From contig JAGCVI010000031.1 in NCBI GenBank assembly GCA_017962445.1, forward strand, positions 93,099 through 157,098: a stretch of DNA of 64,000 nt, given 5' to 3'. A program made the position numbers and the translations under genes. Position 1 is the first letter of the stretch, and each line of letters opens with the position of its first letter. Shown piece by piece: positions 2,265 to 40,725 of the stretch. The stretch is from Bacteroidales bacterium. GTDB lineage: Bacteria > Bacteroidota > Bacteroidia > Bacteroidales > P3. A model generated the notes under the pieces. That model had not been told where the DNA came from and searched no databases. It saw only the letters and a list, made by a program, of their open reading frames with translations.

Positions 2265-3155
2265 ATGGATAACAAAAAAAATAAACGTCGCGGTAAGATA
2301 AACCTCTGGGCTGGACGCACTTCCACGGTTTTTAGCATCACGCTCGTGTTGTTCGTTTTTGGCCTTTTGCTGTTTGTCGAATACCATTCGTACAAGGCCA
2401 CGCACACTGTACAGGAACGCATCGCCTATCAGGTTAACCTCAAACCGGATGCTTCAGAAGAGGAGGCTTTGGCTCTTCTCGAGGATTTAAAAGACTTGGA
2501 TTATGTCAAGAATGCGGACTACATCTCGAAGGACGAGGCTGTAAGGCTTTTCTCGGAAGATATCGAAGAGGACATTATGGATGTCACCGATGGCGAGAAC
2601 CCCCTGTACGCAACGATAATGGTCACTTTGAATGCCAGCAACAGTTCCAAGCAGATGACGGAAAGTCGCGAGCGTTTTGAGGAAGATGTTGATGAATACG
2701 CTATTGTCGACAACGTCAGTTACCAGGAAAATATGGTCAACGACTTGAGTGTCATCTTCTACAAGCTGTCATGGTTTCTGGTTGTCTTCGTCGTCCTGCT
2801 TCTGATTGTCTCAGTGGCTCTTATCAGCACAACAATCAAGATTGCCATCAACAACAACCGATACACCATCCAGACGATGAGCATGGTGGGTGCAAAGATG
2901 AGCTTCATCACGCGTCCGTTCCTGTGGCGCAGCCTGTTGTATGGTTTTCTCGGCGCGCTGTTCGCCCTTGTGATGATGTTTGGTGCCATCTATGTATTCA
3001 ACAAGCAGTTCCATCTTGCAATATTCCATCCACGTTATTTCAACGGCTACATAGTGCTTGTGGTCGCTGTCTTCCTTGTCGGCATGACCATCTCGTTCAT
3101 AGCCACCTATTTCTCTGTGCATGCACATCTGCGTAACAGAGACCAATTTAATTAA
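2265..3155 (+). CDS. ftsX: Cell division protein FtsX-like (permease subunit of FtsEX)
   Basis: The 296-residue protein has a basic N-terminal tail, one transmembrane helix at about residues 20-42, a periplasmic domain of about 120 residues rich in acidic positions, and three C-terminal transmembrane helices, which is the FtsX layout. In the family it works with the ATPase FtsE to control peptidoglycan hydrolases at the septum; ftsE is not in the window. I chose the ATG at 2265 because the promoter -7 box lies at 2249-2256, so the upstream in-frame ATGs at 2211 and 2244 would not be transcribed. It begins a run ftsX-DUF3098-uppP-truB that is a recurrent gene order in Bacteroidota. Confidence 0.88.
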   Translation: MDNKKNKRRGKINLWAGRTSTVFSITLVLFVFGLLLFVEYHSYKATHTVQERIAYQVNLKPDASEEEALALLEDLKDLDYVKNADYISKDEAVRLFSEDIEEDIMDVTDGENPLYATIMVTLNASNSSKQMTESRERFEEDVDEYAIVDNVSYQENMVNDLSVIFYKLSWFLVVFVVLLLIVSVALISTTIKIAINNNRYTIQTMSMVGAKMSFITRPFLWRSLLYGFLGALFALVMMFGAIYVFNKQFHLAIFHPRYFNGYIVLVVAVFLVGMTISFIATYFSVHAHLRNRDQFN

Positions 3156-29140: not shown

Positions 29141-29758
29141 TTACATTGCTCGGATTGTATTCTGAAGTCTGTCAAGGAACTGCGCGGCATGGCCACCGTC
29201 CATCTGCACATGGTGGAACTGGAAGGAGATGGGCAAAGTTGTGCGGAGCCATCCTTTGTGGTATTTTCCCCATGAAACAAAAGGATTGCTGAATTCATCG
29301 GTATATTGGTTTACGATGCAGTCAAGTTCCGTGGCTGTCATTGCCGAGGTTCCAATCACCATTGCATCTTCGACGAAAAAACTTTGGCATTTCTCGCTTG
29401 CCTTTTGGGTCAATGCCAGGTAGTCCGTGCTGAATCGTTCCAAATCATCGTAGTAAGGGATGTCGCACGAGTTGATGCCGCCTTCTTTGTTGCTTACAAT
29501 TACGTTGACGGCCAACTTGTCGAACCTGTATAACTTGCCCTGCTCTGGCAGCAGATAAAACTCCTCCATCCGGCTTGCAGCCTTACCGATACACCAGCAA
29601 ATGGACATATTGAATTTCAAACAATTCCTACGACTAAACCTTATAAGTCGTGTCACATCGAAAGTCTTGGTGACAGTGACCATCGGCATGGGCGACGACA
29701 TCCACAACTCGAAAGCCCGTGCACGACTTGTATCTTGGGGATTGATCTCTTGTTTCAT
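29141..29758 (-). CDS. Chloramphenicol acetyltransferase-like acyltransferase
   Basis: The 205-residue protein shows the CAT family catalytic motif FHHVQMDGGHAAQFL near residue 188 (HHxxxDG, with the catalytic His) and a conserved SWGKY segment upstream. The family transfers acetyl groups from acetyl-CoA; some members inactivate chloramphenicol, many do not. The sequence alone does not show the substrate. It starts at ATG 29758 and lies between the aldolase remnant and the intact aldolase gene on the same strand. Confidence 0.82.
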   Translation of the reverse strand: MKQEINPQDTSRARAFELWMSSPMPMVTVTKTFDVTRLIRFSRRNCLKFNMSICWCIGKAASRMEEFYLLPEQGKLYRFDKLAVNVIVSNKEGGINSCDIPYYDDLERFSTDYLALTQKASEKCQSFFVEDAMVIGTSAMTATELDCIVNQYTDEFSNPFVSWGKYHKGWLRTTLPISFQFHHVQMDGGHAAQFLDRLQNTIRAM

Positions 29759-31237: not shown

Positions 31238-34200
31238 TTATCTTATCAGTGTTACGGTTCCTTTCTTTGACAGCTGGTTTCGAGGTGCTGTCTGGTCGCG
31301 GTAGTGAATGATCCAGACATAGGTGCCTTGCGGACAGACGGAGCCTTTGTAGGTGCCGTCCCATTCATCGTACATATCTTCAGAGTGCCATACAAGGACG
31401 CCTCCACGGGTGTAGAGGTCTATGGAATAGTCTGTGATGCCGATGAAACGGACATAGAATGTATTGTTTGAGTTCTCGGTTGGGGTGAAGACGTTTGGAG
31501 CCCAGATAGTGGCTTTGCGGAATGGAACGACTACAACGGCGGAGTCATAGCATAGACCGTTCTGAGCGATGAGACGGACGACTACGGAGTCGTCTACGGC
31601 TGGGTCGGCAAAGTATGAGATTCGAGAGTTTGCACCGAGGTCGTTGCCATTGACATACCAGTGGTGGGTGAGTTCGTTGGTGGAACGGTTGATGGCTGAG
31701 AGGTGGAGTTGGTCGAGGGTGAGGAACTCAGGGGTGTATTCAATGTCAGCGTGAGGCTTGAGGAGCGGGGAAAGGTATACCGAATCGGTACTCGGGCATG
31801 TTGGCACGTCAGCGTAGTCTGCGAAGAGGCGGTAGAGTTCATGAGTCGTTGGACGTACCTGTATGGTGCGGTCGTATAAGTGACCAGTGAGGGCGGGATC
31901 TTCGGGGAAGGAACCCCACTGGAAATAGGGTGCGTCGGTCTGAGCGGTGAGTGTGAAGGTGCGTGAGTCGCAGTTAGTGTCGACGACGGCGATTACGGTT
32001 GGGTAAGGTAGGAGGATGTGGAGATTGAGGGTGACGACAGAGTCGCAGTGGTCGGTTGTAAAAAGGGAATCGACGTAGGATCCTGATTCAGTATATATAT
32101 TGCCGCCAAAATGATACTCAATTCCTTTACATAGAGTATCGAAGATTTGTGTCGTTTTGCTTTGTGCAACTGTGAGGTTGAGGTTGACGAGGGAATCGCA
32201 GTTGTGGATGGTGTTGAGCGTGAACTGAGCGTCGTGGTTGGACTGCGTGTAAGTGATGCCGTCAATCCAAGTGAGGGAGTCGCAGGCAAAGAGTGAGTCG
32301 ACTACAGAGAGGGAGTGGTGGATTGTCAAGTTGAGATTGATGACACTGTCGCAGCCATGAACAGTGTGGAGTGTGAGTAGGGAATTATGATTGGACTGGG
32401 TGTAGGTGTTGCCGTCTATCCAGTTAATGGAGTCGCAAGAAACGACTGTGTCGGTAATGTCATAGACGGGGTGGACGGTTAGAGTGTGGACAGCTATGCT
32501 GTCGGTTCCGTCGGGGAGGGGAATGGTTTTATTAAGTGTGAATTGCGAATTCTGATTTGTGAACATTGAGGCGTCGAAGTTGAGACCGTCCCAAATGAGT
32601 GGCAGTTGGTTGTAGCAGATGGATGTGTCGGATTGGCTATGGGCGTTGGGGAGGAGTGTGAGAGAGTAGGTGATGACGCTGTCGCATGCAACAGTGTTGA
32701 GGATGGTGATGACAGTGTCGATATGGGTTATTGTGAATTGAGAATCATGAATTGTGAAAATTGAGGTGTCGAATGTTACGCCTCCGAAGGTGTAGGGTAG
32801 TTGATTCTCGACAATTGTGTCGTGTTGAGTGGCGTAGGAAAGGGCGTTGACTTGTAGATGGAGGGTCTCGACGCTGTCACAGTTGTGGATGGTGGTGTAG
32901 TTGTGAATGTATGTGCCTGTGGTGGTGTACAGAGAGTCACCGAAGGGGTAGGGTGCGCCATTGCAGGTGGTGTCAACATAGACAATGTTATAGTCGGGGT
33001 TTACGTGGAGATTCCGTGTCACAATGCTGTCGGCTCCGAATCGGGTATGGAGGGTGTCGATTCGGGTGAGGTGGATTGTGGTCTGGAAATTATGAATTGT
33101 GTCGAAAGGAGTGTTGTCCCAAGTGATTGGGAGTTGGGATGAACAGATGGTGCTGTCGACAGTTAGTCGGACAGTGGGCATCACGGTCAAGGTGAAGTTG
33201 ACTATGCTGTCGCAGCCGTAGCGGTTGACTAGGGTCATCTGCATCTGTGCGTTGGCGGTGTCGACGAAGGTGTAGCCGCTATATATGAAGGGGAGTTGGT
33301 GGTCGCTGATAATGGTATCGATGGACGTGTAGGATACCGGGAATCCCCAAAGGTGATAGGTCTCGTTGCTGTCGCAGCCATGTATGGAGTTCATGTGGCT
33401 GATGCCGAGGTATTCAACGCCAATGCGCATTACACCGGAGTAGTCGCAGATGGTGTCGTAGTAGGTAAGGTCGAAGTTGGGGAAGTTTTCGAAGTGGAGA
33501 TATTCAGAACTATCGCAACCGTCGACGGTGAGGAAGTGCTGTTCATAGAGGCCTGTGACGGTGAGGGTGTCGCCATAGAATACCAGGCTTTGACCGTCGC
33601 AAACAGTGTCGCCCCAGTGGTTGGCGTATGTCGGGTTGACATGCAGATTCATGGTGATGATGCTGTCGGCGGTTGTGTATGCAGGAAGGGTGGCGATACG
33701 AGTGATTGTGAGTCGCGAGTTGAGGATAGTGTCGAAGATGGCATTGTTCCATGTGAGCGGGAGCAGATTGTAGCAAACAGTGGAATCGTAGGAGACGTGG
33801 ACGTTCCAGTGAACGTAGAGACTATAGGAGATAATGCTGTCGCAGCCGTGGACATTAGGAATTATTACAACCGAATCGAGCGATGAGAAGTGTGGTCTAT
33901 AGACAGAAGAGTCGGCACTGTACGATGCGGTGTCTGCAAAATTGCCGGCGGTGAAAATGTAGCCGTTGAATGTGAATGGGAGTTGGTTTTCTACAATAGT
34001 GTCAGTCCATGCAGATGTGGTGTTGAAGAGCATTGTGACGTTCATCGTCAGAAGGCTGTCGGCACCGTGGGTGGTTTGGAGCATTGTCGTCTGTGTGCCA
34101 GTAGTGTCAAAGGTCAAACCATTCCAACTGAAGGGGAAGAAGTTTTCGCATACGTTGCTGTCGGCTGACGCGGAGACGTTGCGCCATACGTGCAGATTCA

Positions 34201-37200
34201 TGGCTGCTATGCTGTCGCAACCTGCAGCATTTGGAATAGTGTTGGATCTACTAATTGAAAAATATGTATCGTGTATCGTGAATTGTGACGGCGGCACGGT
34301 GTCGAAGGTTACTCCGTTCCATGGGTGAGGCAGCATGTTCTCAACGATTGTATCGAAGAGAATCGAGCTGGTGTTGAAGTGTACGGTGAGATGCATGACG
34401 ACAAGGCTGTCTTGACCAAGTGCTGCTGGGAAAACGGCGGTATCGGTGACAGTGACCGGTGATGGATGCTCTCCGATAAGTGAATTGAAGTTGGAGGTGT
34501 CAAAAGAAATGCCATTCCAGATCAGGGGCAGTGAGTTCTCGCAAATGGTGCTGTCGAGGTTTGTGGTTATGTTCCAGTTTACGTGGAGGTTGTAGAAGAT
34601 AATGCTGTCGCAGCCTTTGACATTAGGAATAATGATTGTATCGACGAGGTCGGACTCGGTATGTTGTCCGCCGGTGGTGGCAAACATAGAAATGATGTAG
34701 CTTTCACCGTTGAAAGTGTGAGGCAGATTGTTTTCAACAATAGTGTCGAAATAGATGCTGTGCGTGTTTGTGTCCACCGTCAGGTTCATGGTCAATACAC
34801 TGTCCGCTCCAGTGTAGGCGGTAAGGGTGTCGAGAAGTGTTCCCTGCATTGTGAATGTGCGTGAGTTCCACTGCAGTGGCAGGAAATTCTCGCAGATGGT
34901 GCTGTCTGCTGAAGCCTCCACGTTCCAATGCACGTTCAACGTGTAGTTTATCGAGCTGTCGCAACCGAAGCTGTTGACAATGACGATTGTTGAATCAATC
35001 GAGGCAAAACGTGAGGTAAGATAGGTCGCTGGAGTGAAAAGAATTGTGTCGAAGGTGGCACCGTTGAAGGAATATGGCAGTTGGTTTTCTACAATGGTGT
35101 CGGCGATGTCGGCAGCGGATGTGCCGAAAACGGTGAGGTGCAGCGTCTCGAGACTGTCGCAGTTGTTTATACTTGTCATTAGGTGGGGGTAGGTGCCTGC
35201 CAGGGTGTAGGTGCTGTCGTTGAAGAGGCTTGACTGGTTGCTGCAGATGGTGTCGTAGAAATGAAAATCATAGGTCGGGTTTACATGCAGGTTCATCGTC
35301 AGCACGCTGTCGGCTCCAGTGTGAGCGGTCAGTGTGACGGTGCGTGTAATTGTGAATTGCGAGTTTTGAGTTGTAAGTGAGCTGTCGAAGAGGGCACCGT
35401 TCCAAGTGAATGGCAAGAGATTGTCGCAGATTGTACTGTCAGCGGAGGCACTGACATTCCAGTGGACGAAGAGAGAGTAGGCGATTATACTGTCGCATCC
35501 GGCTTCGTTGGCGATTGTGATGTTTTGTGCGAGCTGAGATGTGCGACCTGTGGGTAAAATAAAGTCTGATATGTCGAAGATTGTATTGTTGAAAGTGAAT
35601 GGAAGTTGATTCTCGACGATGGTGTCGAAATAGACAGACGTGGTGTTATGCAACTGGTTTACGTTCATCGTCAGCGTGCTGTCGGCACCATGGGTTGTGG
35701 ATAGCGATGCGATTTGGGTGCCAGTGGTATCAAAGGAAATGCTGTTCCAAACCAATGGGAAGTAATTCTCGCATAGAGTGCTGTCGGCTTGAGCTGTGCG
35801 GTTGCGCCATACGTGGAGGTTCATGCCTGTGAGGCTGTCGCATCCAAGGTGGTTTGTCAGCGTAGTACCGTGGAACAGGTCTGCTTCACGGATGTTGACT
35901 GCCGAGGTGTCGTTCCAGGTGAAGGTGATACCGTTCCAGCTGTGCGGCAATTGGTTTTCAACGATGGTGTCGTAAAGCAGCGACGAGGTGTTGCCGAGTC
36001 TTGTGAAGTGCATCCAGACGGTGCTGTCGGCTCCGTGCATATTTATCAGAATCGCACTGTCGGTGGAGGTCTGGGTGAAGACTTTGCCGTTCCAGGTGAG
36101 CGGTGTGAAATTCTCGCACAGAGTGCTGTCTACGTGTACTTCCTGGTTACGCCAGACAAAGAGCGAGTAAGTGATTACGCTATCGCAATTCTTTGCATTA
36201 CTGATTGTCACGGTGGTGTTTGTCACCTCGTCGGTGAACTGCATACCGTTGAAGGTGAATGGGAGCTGGTTCTCAACAATGGTGTCGTGTATGGTGCTGT
36301 TGGTTACGACGTTCACTGTCAAATGTAGAGTTACCACGCTGTCGCAGCTATAAATGTTCTGGAATGTATGGGTATAGTCTCCAGTCGCGTTGCGGACAAT
36401 GTTGCCGAATGTGTAAGTCTGGTTGTCGCAGGTGGTGTCTAGGAACTGTGAAATATGAGTCGGGTTGACTGTCAGTAGCAGCGTTACTATGCTGTCACAT
36501 CCGTTGATGGTTGTCAGGGCATGCGGATAACTTCCTGCTGTGCTGTAAATGTTGCCGATGAAGGTTGTTGTCTGGTTGTCGCAGATGGTGTCGGGAACAG
36601 TATGGTCGTATGTGGGATTGACGTGCAGTGTCATTGTTACAATGCTGTCGGCACCTGTGGCGGTGTAGAGTCTGGCTGATTGTGTTCCGGCGGAGGTGAA
36701 TGTCTTGCCGTTCCAGGTCAGTGGCAGTGCGCTTTGGCAGATGGTTGAATCAACCGCGGTGCTGACGTTGGGGTAGATGTATAATGAGAAGTTGATAACG
36801 CTGTCGCATCCAGCAATGTTTGTTATCGTTATCGTTTCATTCTGTACGTTGCCGTTGAATGAGTGTCCGTTGAATTGATAGGTCGACAGCTCGTTTTCCA
36901 ATATTGTGTCGTAAACTGTGCTGTGGGTCACAGCATTAACGGTTAGGTGCAAGGTGACGGTGCTGTCGCAACCCTTTGTGGTCATTAGGTGATGGGTGTA
37001 TTCACCGGTGGTATTGTAGGATGTTCCCGCGAAAGTGTAGCTGCTGTTGTCGCAGATGGTCATGTAGAAGTCCTGGTTCCATGTCGGGTTGATATGCATA
37101 TTACGCACCACCACGCTGTCGGCGCCGGATGTGTTGTAGAGGTGGTCGGTCTTAGTGCAGTCGAAGACACCCTGCGGAAAATTGAAGTCGCTTGCAGAGA

Positions 37201-40200
37201 AGATGGTGCCGTCCCATGTAAGTGGCAATAGATTGTCGCATATTGTTGAGTCGACGACGGTGTTGTCGTTCCAATTGATAGTCAGCGAGTAGTGAATGGT
37301 GCTGTCGCAGCCGTAATGGTTGGTGAGATGAATGTCGGTGGACAATACATTACTTGTAAATGTTTGGCCGTTGAAGGTGTGTGGCAGGTCGTTTTCCAGA
37401 ATGGTTTCGTGTATGGTGGTGTCGGTGACGGGGTTAACTACAAGGTTAAGCGTCACCACGCTGTCACATTCCCATATGTTGGCGAAGGTGTGTGTGTAAG
37501 TCCCTGATGTAGTCAGGGTCTGACCTGCAAAGCTGTAGGGAGAGCTGATACATGTTGTGACAGACAGTGTTGTGGCATTGGTGGAATGAACGGTCAGGTG
37601 CAAAGTCTCGGTGCTGTCGCAGCCATAATTCGAGGTCATGCTTCGCGAATAGGTACCGGTATTTGTATAGTTATTGCCTTCGAACTGAAATGTCTGGTTG
37701 TCGCAGATTGTGTCGTAGTGTTGGTTGTTGTATGTTGGATTTACATTAAGAGTATAGTACACAGTGCTGTCTGCACCGTTCGAGCGTTGGTATAGTATGT
37801 TCTGAGTCCCTTGTTGCAGGAAGGTCAAAGGCCCCCATTGGAAAGGCAGCTGGTCGTCGCAGATGGTCTCGCTAAAGTGGGTTTCAGTGTTCATGTTGAT
37901 ATACAGCGTGTAATGTATAGTGCTGTCACACCCGTAATGGTTCGTCAGGTGAAAAACAGTGTCGATAACGCTGTGGTCAAACCACACACCGTTGAAATAC
38001 CAAGGCAGTTGGTTCTGATTGATGACTCGGTAGATAGAGGTATCTGTCTGTGGATAAATGTTAAAAACAAGTGTTGCGAACGAATCGCATGGAGAATTTG
38101 GAGTGCGGTGCGTTATGGAATAGTTTCCGAGAGTCTGTGTCTCGGAGCTTGTCATTGAAAATCCGTGGTCGTTGTAGGTATCGCCACGGCAAATGTTGGC
38201 ATGGAAAGTGTCGCGGTCAGCAGCACGCTGCAAAAGGTTTAGGTGTATAATGCTGTCGCAACCGGTGTTGAGATGGAAAGTGTAGGTGTGCTCGCCAAGA
38301 CTGGTGAAATTGCTGTCGGCATAAGCATAGGTGTCCAGATAGTCACAATAGCGAATAGTCTTGTATTCTTCATAAGAGGGTAGGACGGTGAGGTCTAGAT
38401 GTACGATTGAGTCGCAGCCATGAATTGTCTCTCGGTCAAACAAGTATGAATTTGAGGTTGTTCCGCTATAGAATGTCTCTCCCCTCCAAGTCCACGGTAG
38501 TTGAGCTTGACAGATGCTTCTGGCATAGTGTAGGTCGTATTGCTGAAAAACGGTAATTGGATATGCTAAATCATATGTACAGTGGTTAGAGTCTGTGACG
38601 TGGCAAAATACAGTATCGCTATGTTGAATATTGCGTATAGGAAGATTATTTCTGGTGGTTGAGTTGTTTTGATATGTCCATAGTGGAGTTTCGTTGTTGT
38701 TGTGTATATATAGTATTGTGTTCTGCCCGGGGCATAGGGTACTGTCGCCGCTGATATATGGAGTGGGATATTCTCCTGTTAATACGATTGATTTGGTAAT
38801 AGTGTCTTTACATTCGTTGCCTGCGATGCCAACGATGAGAGTTACTTGATATGTGCCGATGGCTGTGTAAGTCACTTCGGCATTGTAGTTTGTTGATGTT
38901 TGTCCATTTCCGAAATCCCAGAATGCAGTCTCGCAGTCTTCATTGGTCCACAATGGATTACCGTCAGAACCATAGATCTTGCTTTCGTTTGTGAATCGTA
39001 CCCGGAACTGGCAGTTAGTTACGCTGAATGTATCGCTGAAATCAGCATGGGGGAATCGTGGAGCAGCAAGAGCGTTGATAATATATCCACAGTTTGGATC
39101 GTCGCAATCTGTAGGGGTAACATAACATTGGTACAGCCCTGAATCAACAACATTCAGCATTCGGTTTACTGATAATGTCGAATCAGGATTGGCGGCATTG
39201 TACCATCTGTAGTTGAAACCTTCTGGTGCGTAGAAAGTATTGGCGGTATTGTTTCCACATTGTTGTTGGTGGTCAATTTGTTTTCGTGCACAATGAAGCG
39301 TAAAATAGGCGTATGCTGATGAAGAAGATGAACCGTCGGTAGTAGACAGTTGTAGGTATAGCGTTTTTCCGTGGTAAGGGGACAAATCTATTCCCATCGA
39401 CATCCAGTCGTGCCAATGGTATGGATTTGTGTTGTTTCCAAGTGTATACGTATTCCAGCCCGTAGCACCATCGCTGTACATGAAATCCCTACAATAGCAC
39501 AAGGGCTGTACAGGCAGGCAGTTCTCGTCGAATAAACGAATGGTGAATCGAGGCTTCATATAGTCCAAAACTCCAATCTGTTGCTGAAAAACCATAGCAT
39601 AGCGCAGCATCATCAGGTTGTAGTCATTGGTGTCAACGTGTATTTCATAAAGGATGCTTTCTCCGCCTCCAGATCGTGGATTGCCTAAACGAACCGATAC
39701 AGTGTCGTCAGTTGGCACTAAATGCAATTGATTGCCAGTCCGCTCATCAAGGGCAGTAGGATCGGTGTTTACAGTGTGCTGCGATGAATCAGACTGCCAG
39801 CCCAAATCCACAACACATTGTAATGAATCGCTATGTCTTACTGTCCCTTTGTAGCATGTGACTTGTTCTGCACCACTGAATTGTGTGTATTTGATGCATT
39901 CACGGTAATGGTTACATGTGCTGCAGTTGTAAACCTTTGGAGTCCTGAATTTGAGAGGTGGTGCAACGCAGTAATTAGAGGTATCAGAGCTATAACTTGG
40001 TTTGATGTAGTATGTATATTCTGTTCCTTGTGCAAGAGTTGTAAGTGAATCGTTTCGGTGATGTGCGGTCCTTGATGTTGTAGAACGATTTGGATCGTGG
40101 CTTTGGAAATAATCGACATATCCGTTGGAATAGCCACCCTGCCAAGAGAAATGTGTATAAGTGGTGTTTGTGTTGAATACGTGAACGTCATAGATAGTCG

Positions 40201-40657
40201 GAAAACAAATGTTGAAACTGAAACCATCAGCTATTCCGAAATAGTCGCTATAAAATTTTAGTGTTACTTCGCCTGAATAGCAGTATACTTTCATACTTCC
40301 ATTGCCAATGCAGAACCGCTCAATCGGATATTTTGTCGAACCTCCTTGGTATACAGTTAGATAGTTTCCTTCGTCAATACTAAAATTCCCATAAATAGAA
40401 AAAGGTCTTCCGTCTGTACTACGAATAGTAATGGTTGAGTTGCAGTTTTCAGGGTAGTAGCTGTCTCCTCCGGGGTCAAGAACAGTGTAAGTATTACTTG
40501 ATGAAATCAGAATGGTTGTGTCGCCTGTTTGCGGCATTATTATCTGGTTTTGTGCCGGTATGATATATACGAAAACAAATATTATGACAAGCAGAATTGC
40601 TTTGAAATATCGTGTATGTAATAATCTTTGCATTCTGTTTTTTATTAATTGATTCAT
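31238..40657 (-). CDS. Giant T9SS-exported multi-module surface protein
   Basis: From the ATG at 40657 the protein has about 3,139 residues. In order: a signal anchor (AILLVIIFVFVYIIPAQ); a CUB-like domain (about residues 40-150) with conserved Cys and GxFSIDEGNYLTVY; a fibronectin-like stretch; a region with a jelly-roll-like SSSSSAYAYFTLHC; a PKD-like domain (WDFGNGQTS...YTAIGTYQVTLIV); about 39 tandem modules of some 55 residues encoded by roughly 38525-32010; a second PKD-like region; and a type B T9SS sorting domain (APNVFTPTENSNN, LYTRGGVLVW, GTYVWIIHY, KKGTVTLIR). The three module types differ in their cysteines (see findings). It is probably anchored on or released from the cell surface as an adhesin. 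Its promoter is at 40673-40680. Confidence 0.88.
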   Translation of the reverse strand: MNQLIKNRMQRLLHTRYFKAILLVIIFVFVYIIPAQNQIIMPQTGDTTILISSSNTYTVLDPGGDSYYPENCNSTITIRSTDGRPFSIYGNFSIDEGNYLTVYQGGSTKYPIERFCIGNGSMKVYCYSGEVTLKFYSDYFGIADGFSFNICFPTIYDVHVFNTNTTYTHFSWQGGYSNGYVDYFQSHDPNRSTTSRTAHHRNDSLTTLAQGTEYTYYIKPSYSSDTSNYCVAPPLKFRTPKVYNCSTCNHYRECIKYTQFSGAEQVTCYKGTVRHSDSLQCVVDLGWQSDSSQHTVNTDPTALDERTGNQLHLVPTDDTVSVRLGNPRSGGGESILYEIHVDTNDYNLMMLRYAMVFQQQIGVLDYMKPRFTIRLFDENCLPVQPLCYCRDFMYSDGATGWNTYTLGNNTNPYHWHDWMSMGIDLSPYHGKTLYLQLSTTDGSSSSSAYAYFTLHCARKQIDHQQQCGNNTANTFYAPEGFNYRWYNAANPDSTLSVNRMLNVVDSGLYQCYVTPTDCDDPNCGYIINALAAPRFPHADFSDTFSVTNCQFRVRFTNESKIYGSDGNPLWTNEDCETAFWDFGNGQTSTNYNAEVTYTAIGTYQVTLIVGIAGNECKDTITKSIVLTGEYPTPYISGDSTLCPGQNTILYIHNNNETPLWTYQNNSTTRNNLPIRNIQHSDTVFCHVTDSNHCTYDLAYPITVFQQYDLHYARSICQAQLPWTWRGETFYSGTTSNSYLFDRETIHGCDSIVHLDLTVLPSYEEYKTIRYCDYLDTYAYADSNFTSLGEHTYTFHLNTGCDSIIHLNLLQRAADRDTFHANICRGDTYNDHGFSMTSSETQTLGNYSITHRTPNSPCDSFATLVFNIYPQTDTSIYRVINQNQLPWYFNGVWFDHSVIDTVFHLTNHYGCDSTIHYTLYINMNTETHFSETICDDQLPFQWGPLTFLQQGTQNILYQRSNGADSTVYYTLNVNPTYNNQHYDTICDNQTFQFEGNNYTNTGTYSRSMTSNYGCDSTETLHLTVHSTNATTLSVTTCISSPYSFAGQTLTTSGTYTHTFANIWECDSVVTLNLVVNPVTDTTIHETILENDLPHTFNGQTFTSNVLSTDIHLTNHYGCDSTIHYSLTINWNDNTVVDSTICDNLLPLTWDGTIFSASDFNFPQGVFDCTKTDHLYNTSGADSVVVRNMHINPTWNQDFYMTICDNSSYTFAGTSYNTTGEYTHHLMTTKGCDSTVTLHLTVNAVTHSTVYDTILENELSTYQFNGHSFNGNVQNETITITNIAGCDSVINFSLYIYPNVSTAVDSTICQSALPLTWNGKTFTSAGTQSARLYTATGADSIVTMTLHVNPTYDHTVPDTICDNQTTTFIGNIYSTAGSYPHALTTINGCDSIVTLLLTVNPTHISQFLDTTCDNQTYTFGNIVRNATGDYTHTFQNIYSCDSVVTLHLTVNVVTNSTIHDTIVENQLPFTFNGMQFTDEVTNTTVTISNAKNCDSVITYSLFVWRNQEVHVDSTLCENFTPLTWNGKVFTQTSTDSAILINMHGADSTVWMHFTRLGNTSSLLYDTIVENQLPHSWNGITFTWNDTSAVNIREADLFHGTTLTNHLGCDSLTGMNLHVWRNRTAQADSTLCENYFPLVWNSISFDTTGTQIASLSTTHGADSTLTMNVNQLHNTTSVYFDTIVENQLPFTFNNTIFDISDFILPTGRTSQLAQNITIANEAGCDSIIAYSLFVHWNVSASADSTICDNLLPFTWNGALFDSSLTTQNSQFTITRTVTLTAHTGADSVLTMNLHVNPTYDFHFYDTICSNQSSLFNDSTYTLAGTYPHLMTSINNCDSLETLHLTVFGTSAADIADTIVENQLPYSFNGATFDTILFTPATYLTSRFASIDSTIVIVNSFGCDSSINYTLNVHWNVEASADSTICENFLPLQWNSRTFTMQGTLLDTLTAYTGADSVLTMNLTVDTNTHSIYFDTIVENNLPHTFNGESYIISMFATTGGQHTESDLVDTIIIPNVKGCDSIIFYNLHVNWNITTNLDSTICENSLPLIWNGISFDTSNFNSLIGEHPSPVTVTDTAVFPAALGQDSLVVMHLTVHFNTSSILFDTIVENMLPHPWNGVTFDTVPPSQFTIHDTYFSISRSNTIPNAAGCDSIAAMNLHVWRNVSASADSNVCENFFPFSWNGLTFDTTGTQTTMLQTTHGADSLLTMNVTMLFNTTSAWTDTIVENQLPFTFNGYIFTAGNFADTASYSADSSVYRPHFSSLDSVVIIPNVHGCDSIISYSLYVHWNVHVSYDSTVCYNLLPLTWNNAIFDTILNSRLTITRIATLPAYTTADSIITMNLHVNPTYANHWGDTVCDGQSLVFYGDTLTVTGLYEQHFLTVDGCDSSEYLHFENFPNFDLTYYDTICDYSGVMRIGVEYLGISHMNSIHGCDSNETYHLWGFPVSYTSIDTIISDHQLPFIYSGYTFVDTANAQMQMTLVNRYGCDSIVNFTLTVMPTVRLTVDSTICSSQLPITWDNTPFDTIHNFQTTIHLTRIDTLHTRFGADSIVTRNLHVNPDYNIVYVDTTCNGAPYPFGDSLYTTTGTYIHNYTTIHNCDSVETLHLQVNALSYATQHDTIVENQLPYTFGGVTFDTSIFTIHDSQFTITHIDTVITILNTVACDSVITYSLTLLPNAHSQSDTSICYNQLPLIWDGLNFDASMFTNQNSQFTLNKTIPLPDGTDSIAVHTLTVHPVYDITDTVVSCDSINWIDGNTYTQSNHNSLLTLHTVHGCDSVINLNLTIHHSLSVVDSLFACDSLTWIDGITYTQSNHDAQFTLNTIHNCDSLVNLNLTVAQSKTTQIFDTLCKGIEYHFGGNIYTESGSYVDSLFTTDHCDSVVTLNLHILLPYPTVIAVVDTNCDSRTFTLTAQTDAPYFQWGSFPEDPALTGHLYDRTIQVRPTTHELYRLFADYADVPTCPSTDSVYLSPLLKPHADIEYTPEFLTLDQLHLSAINRSTNELTHHWYVNGNDLGANSRISYFADPAVDDSVVVRLIAQNGLCYDSAVVVVPFRKATIWAPNVFTPTENSNNTFYVRFIGITDYSIDLYTRGGVLVWHSEDMYDEWDGTYKGSVCPQGTYVWIIHYRDQTAPRNQLSKKGTVTLIR
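32010..38525 (-). repeat. Array of about 39 coding modules in the giant protein
   Basis: Each module has a start motif (TICDN, TIVEN or STICEN type), a short TFNG/TWNG or FEG strand and an end motif (GCDS or GADS plus a beta strand such as TLHLTV, YSLYV, TMNLHV). Counting by eye gives 15 modules with cysteine at both motifs, 12 with cysteine only at the end and 12 with cysteine only at the start. Mean spacing is about 167 bp. Confidence 0.75.
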
Positions 40658-40672
40658 TAGTAAATGAAAATG

Positions 40673-40680
40673 CAAAGGTA
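40673..40680 (-). promoter_or_regulatory. -7 element of the giant gene
   Basis: On the minus strand TACCTTTG followed by CA, with TTTTTTG 20 bp upstream (40701-40707). The start of transcription would be only about 10 bp before the ATG at 40657. Confidence 0.7.
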
Positions 40681-40683
40681 CAT

Positions 40684-40725
40684 AAAAAAACAAAATGACC
40701 CAAAAAATGGCCATTTTGTTTTTTT
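40684..40725 (-). terminator. Terminator of the nuclease gene, overlapping the giant gene's promoter
   Basis: Complementary 14-base arms AAAAAAACAAAATG (40684-40697) and CATTTTGTTTTTTT (40712-40725) surround a 14-nt loop. On the minus strand it follows the nuclease stop at 40748 and ends in a T run. The right half contains the -33 element of the next gene. Confidence 0.6.

Follow-up and report, generated by a model that had tools for sequence, protein, structure and literature searches.

A giant repeat protein and its cysteine slots

The window analysed here is a 64,000-nucleotide stretch of DNA from a Bacteroidales bacterium (GenBank assembly GCA_017962445.1, contig JAGCVI010000031.1, forward-strand positions 93,099 to 157,098). 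It contains an open reading frame for a giant protein of 3158 amino acids (aa) with 83 cysteines, called on the reverse strand at 31238-40714, and the parts of the protein described below lie on the same strand. Its core is an array of 39 modules of ~51 aa or more each (32006-38539, aa 726-2903), which we delimited by anchoring on an end motif, xDS, and a start motif. Each module i has one slot for a cysteine at its start motif, s(i), and one at its end motif, e(i). We observed that a cysteine at s(i) goes with a cysteine at e(i+1) of the next module. Judged from the sequence, this strict pairing is probably best explained by a single type of disulfide staple, s(i)-e(i+1), between neighbouring modules.

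The protein belongs with type IX secreted proteins by its C-terminal CHU_C sorting domain (PF13585, E = 4.5e-12; aa 3072-3154, 31253-31501). TIGR04131 scored 29.3 bits, under its 35-bit cut-off. The Pfam scan also matched PKD_4 at aa 593-635. For the module itself, no Pfam or NCBIfam model was found in the window protein, and no Pfam model in two relatives. If each module contributes ~4 nm, the array would span ~150 nm.

Divergent domains flank the array. Upstream lies domain 0 (~aa 651-725, 38540-38764; limits by eye), with an s-type Cys 661 and an e-type Cys 712; Cys 661 could be stapled to the end Cys 767 of module 1. Downstream lies the divergent module 40 (~aa 2904-2986, 31757-32005; limits by eye), with an s-type Cys 2915 and an e-type Cys 2973. 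It is followed by a terminal domain (~aa 2987-3068, 31511-31756) that appears PKD-like by eye, has no Pfam call and contains a single e-type cysteine, Cys 3055 (NGLCYDS). The predicted tail pairs are 2862-2973, from a start cysteine of the array to module 40, and 2915-3055, from module 40 to the terminal domain.

Cysteine states at the module joints

We tabulated the array module by module, with B for modules with both cysteines, E for the end cysteine only and S for the start cysteine only. The state order was BBBESBBESBESBBESESESBESESESESBBESBESBBB. A sequence-only reading of this stretch had counted 15 B, 12 E and 12 S modules by eye; these counts were exact, and no module was free of cysteine. 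It had also noted that every E module is directly followed by an S module; this was the case for all 12, and all 12 S modules were directly preceded by an E module. Under free permutation of the 39 states the chance of this order is 1/C(39,12), or ~1 in 3.9 billion. As evidence this figure is too strong, given that the E-S doublet is itself a duplicated unit.

The module table placed the 12 doublets, each with one joint that would lack a staple, at modules 4-5 (37733-38047), 8-9 (37082-37426), 11-12 (36611-36928), 15-16 (35990-36304), 17-18 (35645-35989), 19-20 (35273-35644), 22-23 (34766-35119), 24-25 (34373-34765), 26-27 (34022-34372), 28-29 (33629-34021), 32-33 (32993-33334) and 35-36 (32465-32839). 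The distance from an end slot to the next start slot was 23 residues at 38/38 joints, where the next starts were set by this 23-residue rule and, on inspection, coincided with the motif, with a possible shift of one residue in module 32. Within modules, the distance from start slot to end slot varied from 24 to 50 residues. The earlier statement that no module is left with an unpaired cysteine does not hold strictly: an additional Cys 1186 (37157-37159) in S module 9 has no obvious partner and breaks strict parity within the window itself.

The two order rules, E then S and S after E, are together logically identical to the statement that s(i) is a cysteine if and only if e(i+1) is a cysteine, over the states B, E and S. 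From domain 0 to the terminal domain, the window has 41 joints, with cysteines in both slots at 29, in neither at 12 and in one slot alone at 0, so the statement holds at 41/41. Given this identity, one universal inter-module bond is possible in place of two bond architectures, and geometry must decide between them.

We assessed the pairing rule in related arrays. A profile of the 12 doublets matched 100 of 148 genomes searched, including every genome of the same genus that was listed. We took 140 loci (L031-L110 and L115-L174) from 88 genomes, 78 of the genus of the window, among them its own genome, and 10 from other families within the order. The loci were picked for matching the doublet or module profile, so the frequency of E-S pairs in them is not a genome-wide estimate. 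Loci L001-L030 were excluded as short stretches and L111-L114 as contigs that, judged by length, were already in use. One of the latter, L112 (CADBOG010000096.1), has in-frame stops within its repeat array, and its near relative L111 is open throughout the array; the stops reflect either decay or an assembly error. An iterated module profile at 15 bits or more found chains in 129 of 141 sources and none in the other 12; the 217 chains comprised 1974 modules. The counts exclude modules below 15 bits, chains of fewer than three modules, duplicates of chains and first modules that were truncated.

The related modules comprised 1260 B, 360 E and 354 S, and none of the 1974 was free of cysteine. 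E was followed by S in 314/321 cases, and S was preceded by E in 314/336. Shuffling the states within arrays 1000 times gave E-to-S fractions of 0.32 on average and 0.385 at most. Of the seven E modules without a following S, six stood first in their chain and mostly were not full modules by eye, with a displaced cysteine visible in L152 and L153; the seventh was in L102 (BEBES). The 22 S modules without a preceding E consisted of 21 in BS order and one in SS order (L085). In all 21 BS cases the module before S looked E-like with a displaced cysteine, one residue ahead of the start slot in 20 and four ahead in L044. Chains were found in 18 of 20 loci from other families and were nearly all B, with E-S pairs in L097, L102 and L104. 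The pairing rule holds across the related arrays of one genus and is seen in these few loci from other families.

Across the 1757 joints of the related arrays, s(i) and e(i+1) were both cysteine at 1414, neither at 314 and mismatched at 29, so that the two slots agreed at 1728/1757 (phi = 0.946). Of the other slot pairs, e(i) with s(i+1) had a phi of 0.281, and the rest were negative: −0.231 for the two slots of one module, s(i) and e(i), −0.216 for the start slots of neighbours and −0.234 for their end slots. At the E-S joints, the most common replacement was Val at s (172/314) and Ala at e (201/314), with both in 116/314. All 321 start-Cys-free modules with a successor retained the end cysteine. 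No two adjacent joints both lacked the pair, compared to 67 such cases on average, and never fewer than 50, when the states were shuffled 2000 times; the observed count becomes one if mismatched joints are taken as unstapled. Each module would therefore keep at least one staple. The length grammar proposed in the sequence-only reading stands: a further B module or E-S pair can go in at any point of the array, so long as it does not separate an E from its S.

Two candidate lines of evidence were dropped. The absence of Cys-free modules does not separate one universal staple from two bond architectures, as both explain it. Invariant retained cysteines in alignments A1 and A3 were set aside because the rows had been selected by Cys state.

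Strand geometry and the predicted staple

To place the slots relative to each other, we applied mean-field direct coupling analysis (own script) to 1742 pairs of neighbouring modules, with an effective number of 1320. The Cys columns were omitted from the couplings, since in a set restricted to B-B pairs the four invariant Cys columns showed an artefact, with one and the same value for each of their six pairs. Strand A at the start slot and strand D at the end slot of the same module coupled most strongly at the parallel register +11 (summed z of 6.2 and 7.1 in the two copies). The same diagonal was present in B-B pairs alone (5.2 and 6.0). The runners-up were the parallel register +13 (3.7 and 3.3) and antiparallel diagonals of up to 3.8. 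When the loci were split at random into halves, register +11 was the highest of the parallel diagonals 5-17 in each half (mean z of 1.50 and 2.03), and it was again the highest in the other families alone (0.95; 143 pairs). Strands C and D coupled antiparallel (5.5). Between the end strand of one module and the start strand of the next, no diagonal showed coupling across the 1742 pairs (best, −0.2). A hairpin of these two strands, hinted at by the fixed spacing of 23, was rejected for lack of an antiparallel signal.

The top non-Cys coupling between modules in the full set was e+11(i)/e-2(i+1), with z = 6.1 for neighbours. It fell to 0.1 two modules apart, 0.2 three apart and −0.6 upon re-pairing within state classes. 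Couplings that reflect repeat similarity, such as e+6/e+6, persisted two and three modules apart. In B-B pairs alone, e+11/e-2 was second (4.2) behind e+6/e+6 (5.3), which is of the repeat-similarity kind. In E-S pairs alone it reached 6.8, so joints that lack the cysteines retain the same interface. Taken together, s(i) is predicted to adjoin e(i)+11, which in turn would adjoin e(i+1), placing s(i) and e(i+1) in contact. By standard strand geometry, s(i) and e(i) of the same module would be ~11 strand residues, or ~35 Å, apart.

These data suggest a stalk in which small beta modules, each with four strands A-B-C-D, follow one another without a linker. Strand A would run parallel to strand D of its own module and C antiparallel to D, and D would continue into the next A at the fixed spacing. 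The start cysteine, at the end of strand A, would thereby come to lie where its module abuts the next one, close to the beginning of strand D and the end cysteine of that next module, giving the s(i)-e(i+1) staple. This staple would repeat joint by joint from domain 0 through the terminal domain before the sorting signal, and may stiffen the stalk. The E-S doublets would be joints without a staple, where both cysteines were replaced together, mostly by Val at s and Ala at e, and may act as softer points. With adjacent joints never both unstapled, every module would be stapled to at least one neighbour.

Additional cysteines also occurred in pairs. Among 1351 dereplicated module pairs, we observed s+8/e-8 within a module in four cases (p = 1e-8), on strands B and C. 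Across joints, extra pairs recurred at the predicted interface: e+11(i)/e-2(i+1) occurred twice (L049 and L044), both times at E-S joints without the canonical cysteines, and s-1(i)/e-4(i+1) occurred twice after dereplication and three times in the raw set (L118, L134 and L141). An E-like module before S, with a cysteine one residue ahead of the start slot, was often of the form YYDTC[TVI]ENxLP and mostly part of a three-Cys doublet. Carriers were L051, L053, L060, L064, L065, L074, L075, L115, L116, L118, L120, L121, L125, L131, L134 and L141, in similar contexts, and L118, L134 and L141 had a second extra cysteine at e-4 of the next module. Overall, one extra cysteine was found in 55/1239 B units and 49/314 E-S units of the relatives.

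The array ends were also compared among the relatives. A cysteine 15-20 residues before the sorting-domain motif, in the terminal domain, was found in 68/70 motif-bearing tails. An s-type cysteine 22-26 residues after the last module was found in 50/72 tails, consistent with a scheme of s(last)-e(40) and s(40)-e(terminal), and 38/72 tails fit the simplest form of this scheme exactly. Array starts did not give a clean test, as the preceding domains differ. Among the starts listed, three followed a domain that we take to be CARDB-like, two of them B-first with an extra cysteine and one S-first without.

Several observations weigh against the universal staple. The Cys rule appears to be largely inherited from few ancestral doublets. 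In a tree of 277 doublets (dereplicated, capped by type, Cys slots hidden), s(i) changed 15 times and e(i+1) seven times; only three independent contrasts were supported, and the sign test was not significant. In the other families alone, the e+11/e-2 coupling was weak (0.8; 143 pairs). The top intra-module coupling, s-9/e-4 (7.1), was off the +11 diagonal, although it fits a start of strand A near the e end of the module. Searches for solved relatives gave, with a profile of 19 modules, a best match of E = 0.034 to the 64-aa HEEH_rd4_0097, which we took as chance, and, with a profile of 31 four-module stretches, no match up to E = 10. Each kind of extra pair across joints comes from two or three proteins that are related, and the p values therefore exaggerate the independence of the cases. 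Another pair, e+7(i)/e+11(i+1), with two dereplicated cases in the related L049 and L044, is outside the staple model. A single extra cysteine in 104/1553 B and E-S units, the cysteine one residue ahead of the slot at 20/21 BS joints and the odd count of three in 16/21 BS units also run counter to it. At the array ends, 33 tails without a sorting-domain motif were outside the 68/70 count, 34/72 tails hold further cysteines, the terminal-domain cysteine might pair with a sorting-domain cysteine (absent in 5/68), and the end Cys 712 of domain 0 has no assigned partner. Finally, no match to DsbA (PF01323, scanned in the own genome only) or VKOR was found in the own genome, which is 80% complete. 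In the genus, VKOR matched in 1/87 genomes (G031) and Thioredoxin_4 in 2/87 (G031 and G073).

Alternative readings and known surface stalks

The sequence-only reading had proposed two disulfide architectures: B modules closed on themselves by s(i)-e(i), and E-S doublets closed by e(i)-s(i+1). This reading is probably wrong, and we consider it improbable as an alternative to the universal staple. It accounts for the order of states just as well, the two rules being logically equivalent over these three states, and it explains why 0/1974 modules lack both cysteines. However, the parallel register of strands A and D sets s(i) ~11 residues along strand D from e(i), at the opposite strand end, and self-closed B modules were rejected on this register. 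The contact of the end strand with the next start strand that the doublet bond needs had no coupling, and the single cysteine of the terminal domain would be left without a partner in the array. Parity alone would also permit the order E-B-S, yet no instance had a convincing E (E-B in 7/321: six chain starts and L102). The idea of a cysteine connection across joints survives from the proposed doublet; the bond assigned to it is not supported: the pair lost together is s(i)/e(i+1), and these two positions are predicted to touch. Bonding had been judged there from cysteines retained together, and comparative practice uses those lost together. Cysteine patterns can be misread in this way: loss in concert, not retention in concert, points to a bond.

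Two further readings do without the staple. In the first, there is no bond logic at all, and E-S is an old two-module duplication whose Cys pattern was inherited without functional constraint. The few state changes in the doublet tree (15 and seven over 277 rows) and the likeness of E and S modules in the N-x-LP stretch after the start slot speak for it. Inheritance of this kind does not explain why the end cysteine is kept in every start-Cys-free module with a successor, why substitute Cys pairs arise at the same interface, or why the s(i)/e(i+1) geometry, derived from non-Cys columns, holds in B-B pairs alone; we regard it as the least probable of the alternatives. In the second, s(i) and e(i+1) touch but stay reduced or have another role, such as metal binding. 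The lack of DsbA and VKOR matches in the own genome and the VKOR match in 1/87 genomes of the genus favour this, as does the origin of three relatives: one is from sheep colon and two carry the RUG prefix, which we take to denote a rumen catalogue. Gut sites such as colon and rumen are anaerobic. On the other side, each joint has only two conserved cysteines (no search for further metal ligands was made), and disulfides do form in cell-envelope proteins of another type IX secreting member of the Bacteroidota (PMC12635249). Reduced or metal-binding cysteines are an unlikely account, on a par with the two architectures. Although VKOR and Thioredoxin_4 matches are scarce in the genus, its surface proteins carry many conserved Cys pairs. 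If the universal staple is right, the question is raised of how dozens of disulfides form per exported chain in bacteria without a recognisable DsbA or VKOR.

The surroundings of the gene were scanned as well. Across the own genome, CHU_C matched 16 times at E ≤ 0.001, and 15 of these matches were above the cut-off. Two further giant frames in this genome, of 3293 and 3961 aa, carry CHU_C matches at G000:C7:31275-31487 and G000:C4:58852-59001, the latter under the cut-off. No PorP/SprF family match was found among 10 neighbouring open reading frames scanned, three of which had no Pfam match at all. A putative chloramphenicol acetyltransferase family gene (PF00302, E = 5.5e-15) lies at 29141-29758 on the reverse strand.

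Whether the arrays represent a widespread family of giant Bacteroidota stalks, with linkerless joints stapled in one way and singly dropped staples encoding a pattern of stiff and compliant joints, we consider an evenly balanced proposition. The staple rule offers a test for a large set of repeats without a Pfam model. Literature searches, judged by the titles and abstract openings of the best-ranked papers listed, found no Cys rule in repeats of this kind and no inter-domain disulfide stapling of type IX stalks; preprints and most subscription journals fell outside it, so that absence is weakly tested.

Among the closest known systems, PKD/Ig-like repeat proteins with a type IX sorting domain share the overall build, and the window protein has one PKD_4 match. 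It differs from them in its module, for which the database copies searched gave no Pfam or NCBIfam model. The SprB gliding adhesins of Bacteroidota are, like this protein, very long type IX secreted surface proteins, with SprB ~200 nm long (PMC12635249). The window protein had no match to SprB repeats (PF13573) up to E = 1, which sets it apart from SprB-repeat proteins. One of the two relatives scanned against Pfam, L096, carries SprB repeats downstream of its module array. In the SprB system, the disulfides described in PMC12635249 link SprF and PorG to GldK, and not one adhesin domain to another.

The nearest functional parallel is with the extenders of RTX adhesins (MhLap, AhLap and MpIBP), which PMC7493085 describes as tandem beta-sandwich repeats whose linker joints are stiffened by calcium. 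Both are giant surface proteins that would gain reach from many tandem beta repeats and have a feature that may stiffen the joints. In contrast to the RTX extenders, the feature here is a predicted disulfide, the joints have no spare linker residues, some of them would be unstapled, and the chain ends in a type IX sorting domain. Long bacterial stalks need stiff joints, and calcium is one solution already described. Disulfides at most of the joints, with no two missing staples side by side, would be a different, covalent solution that can be read from the sequence.

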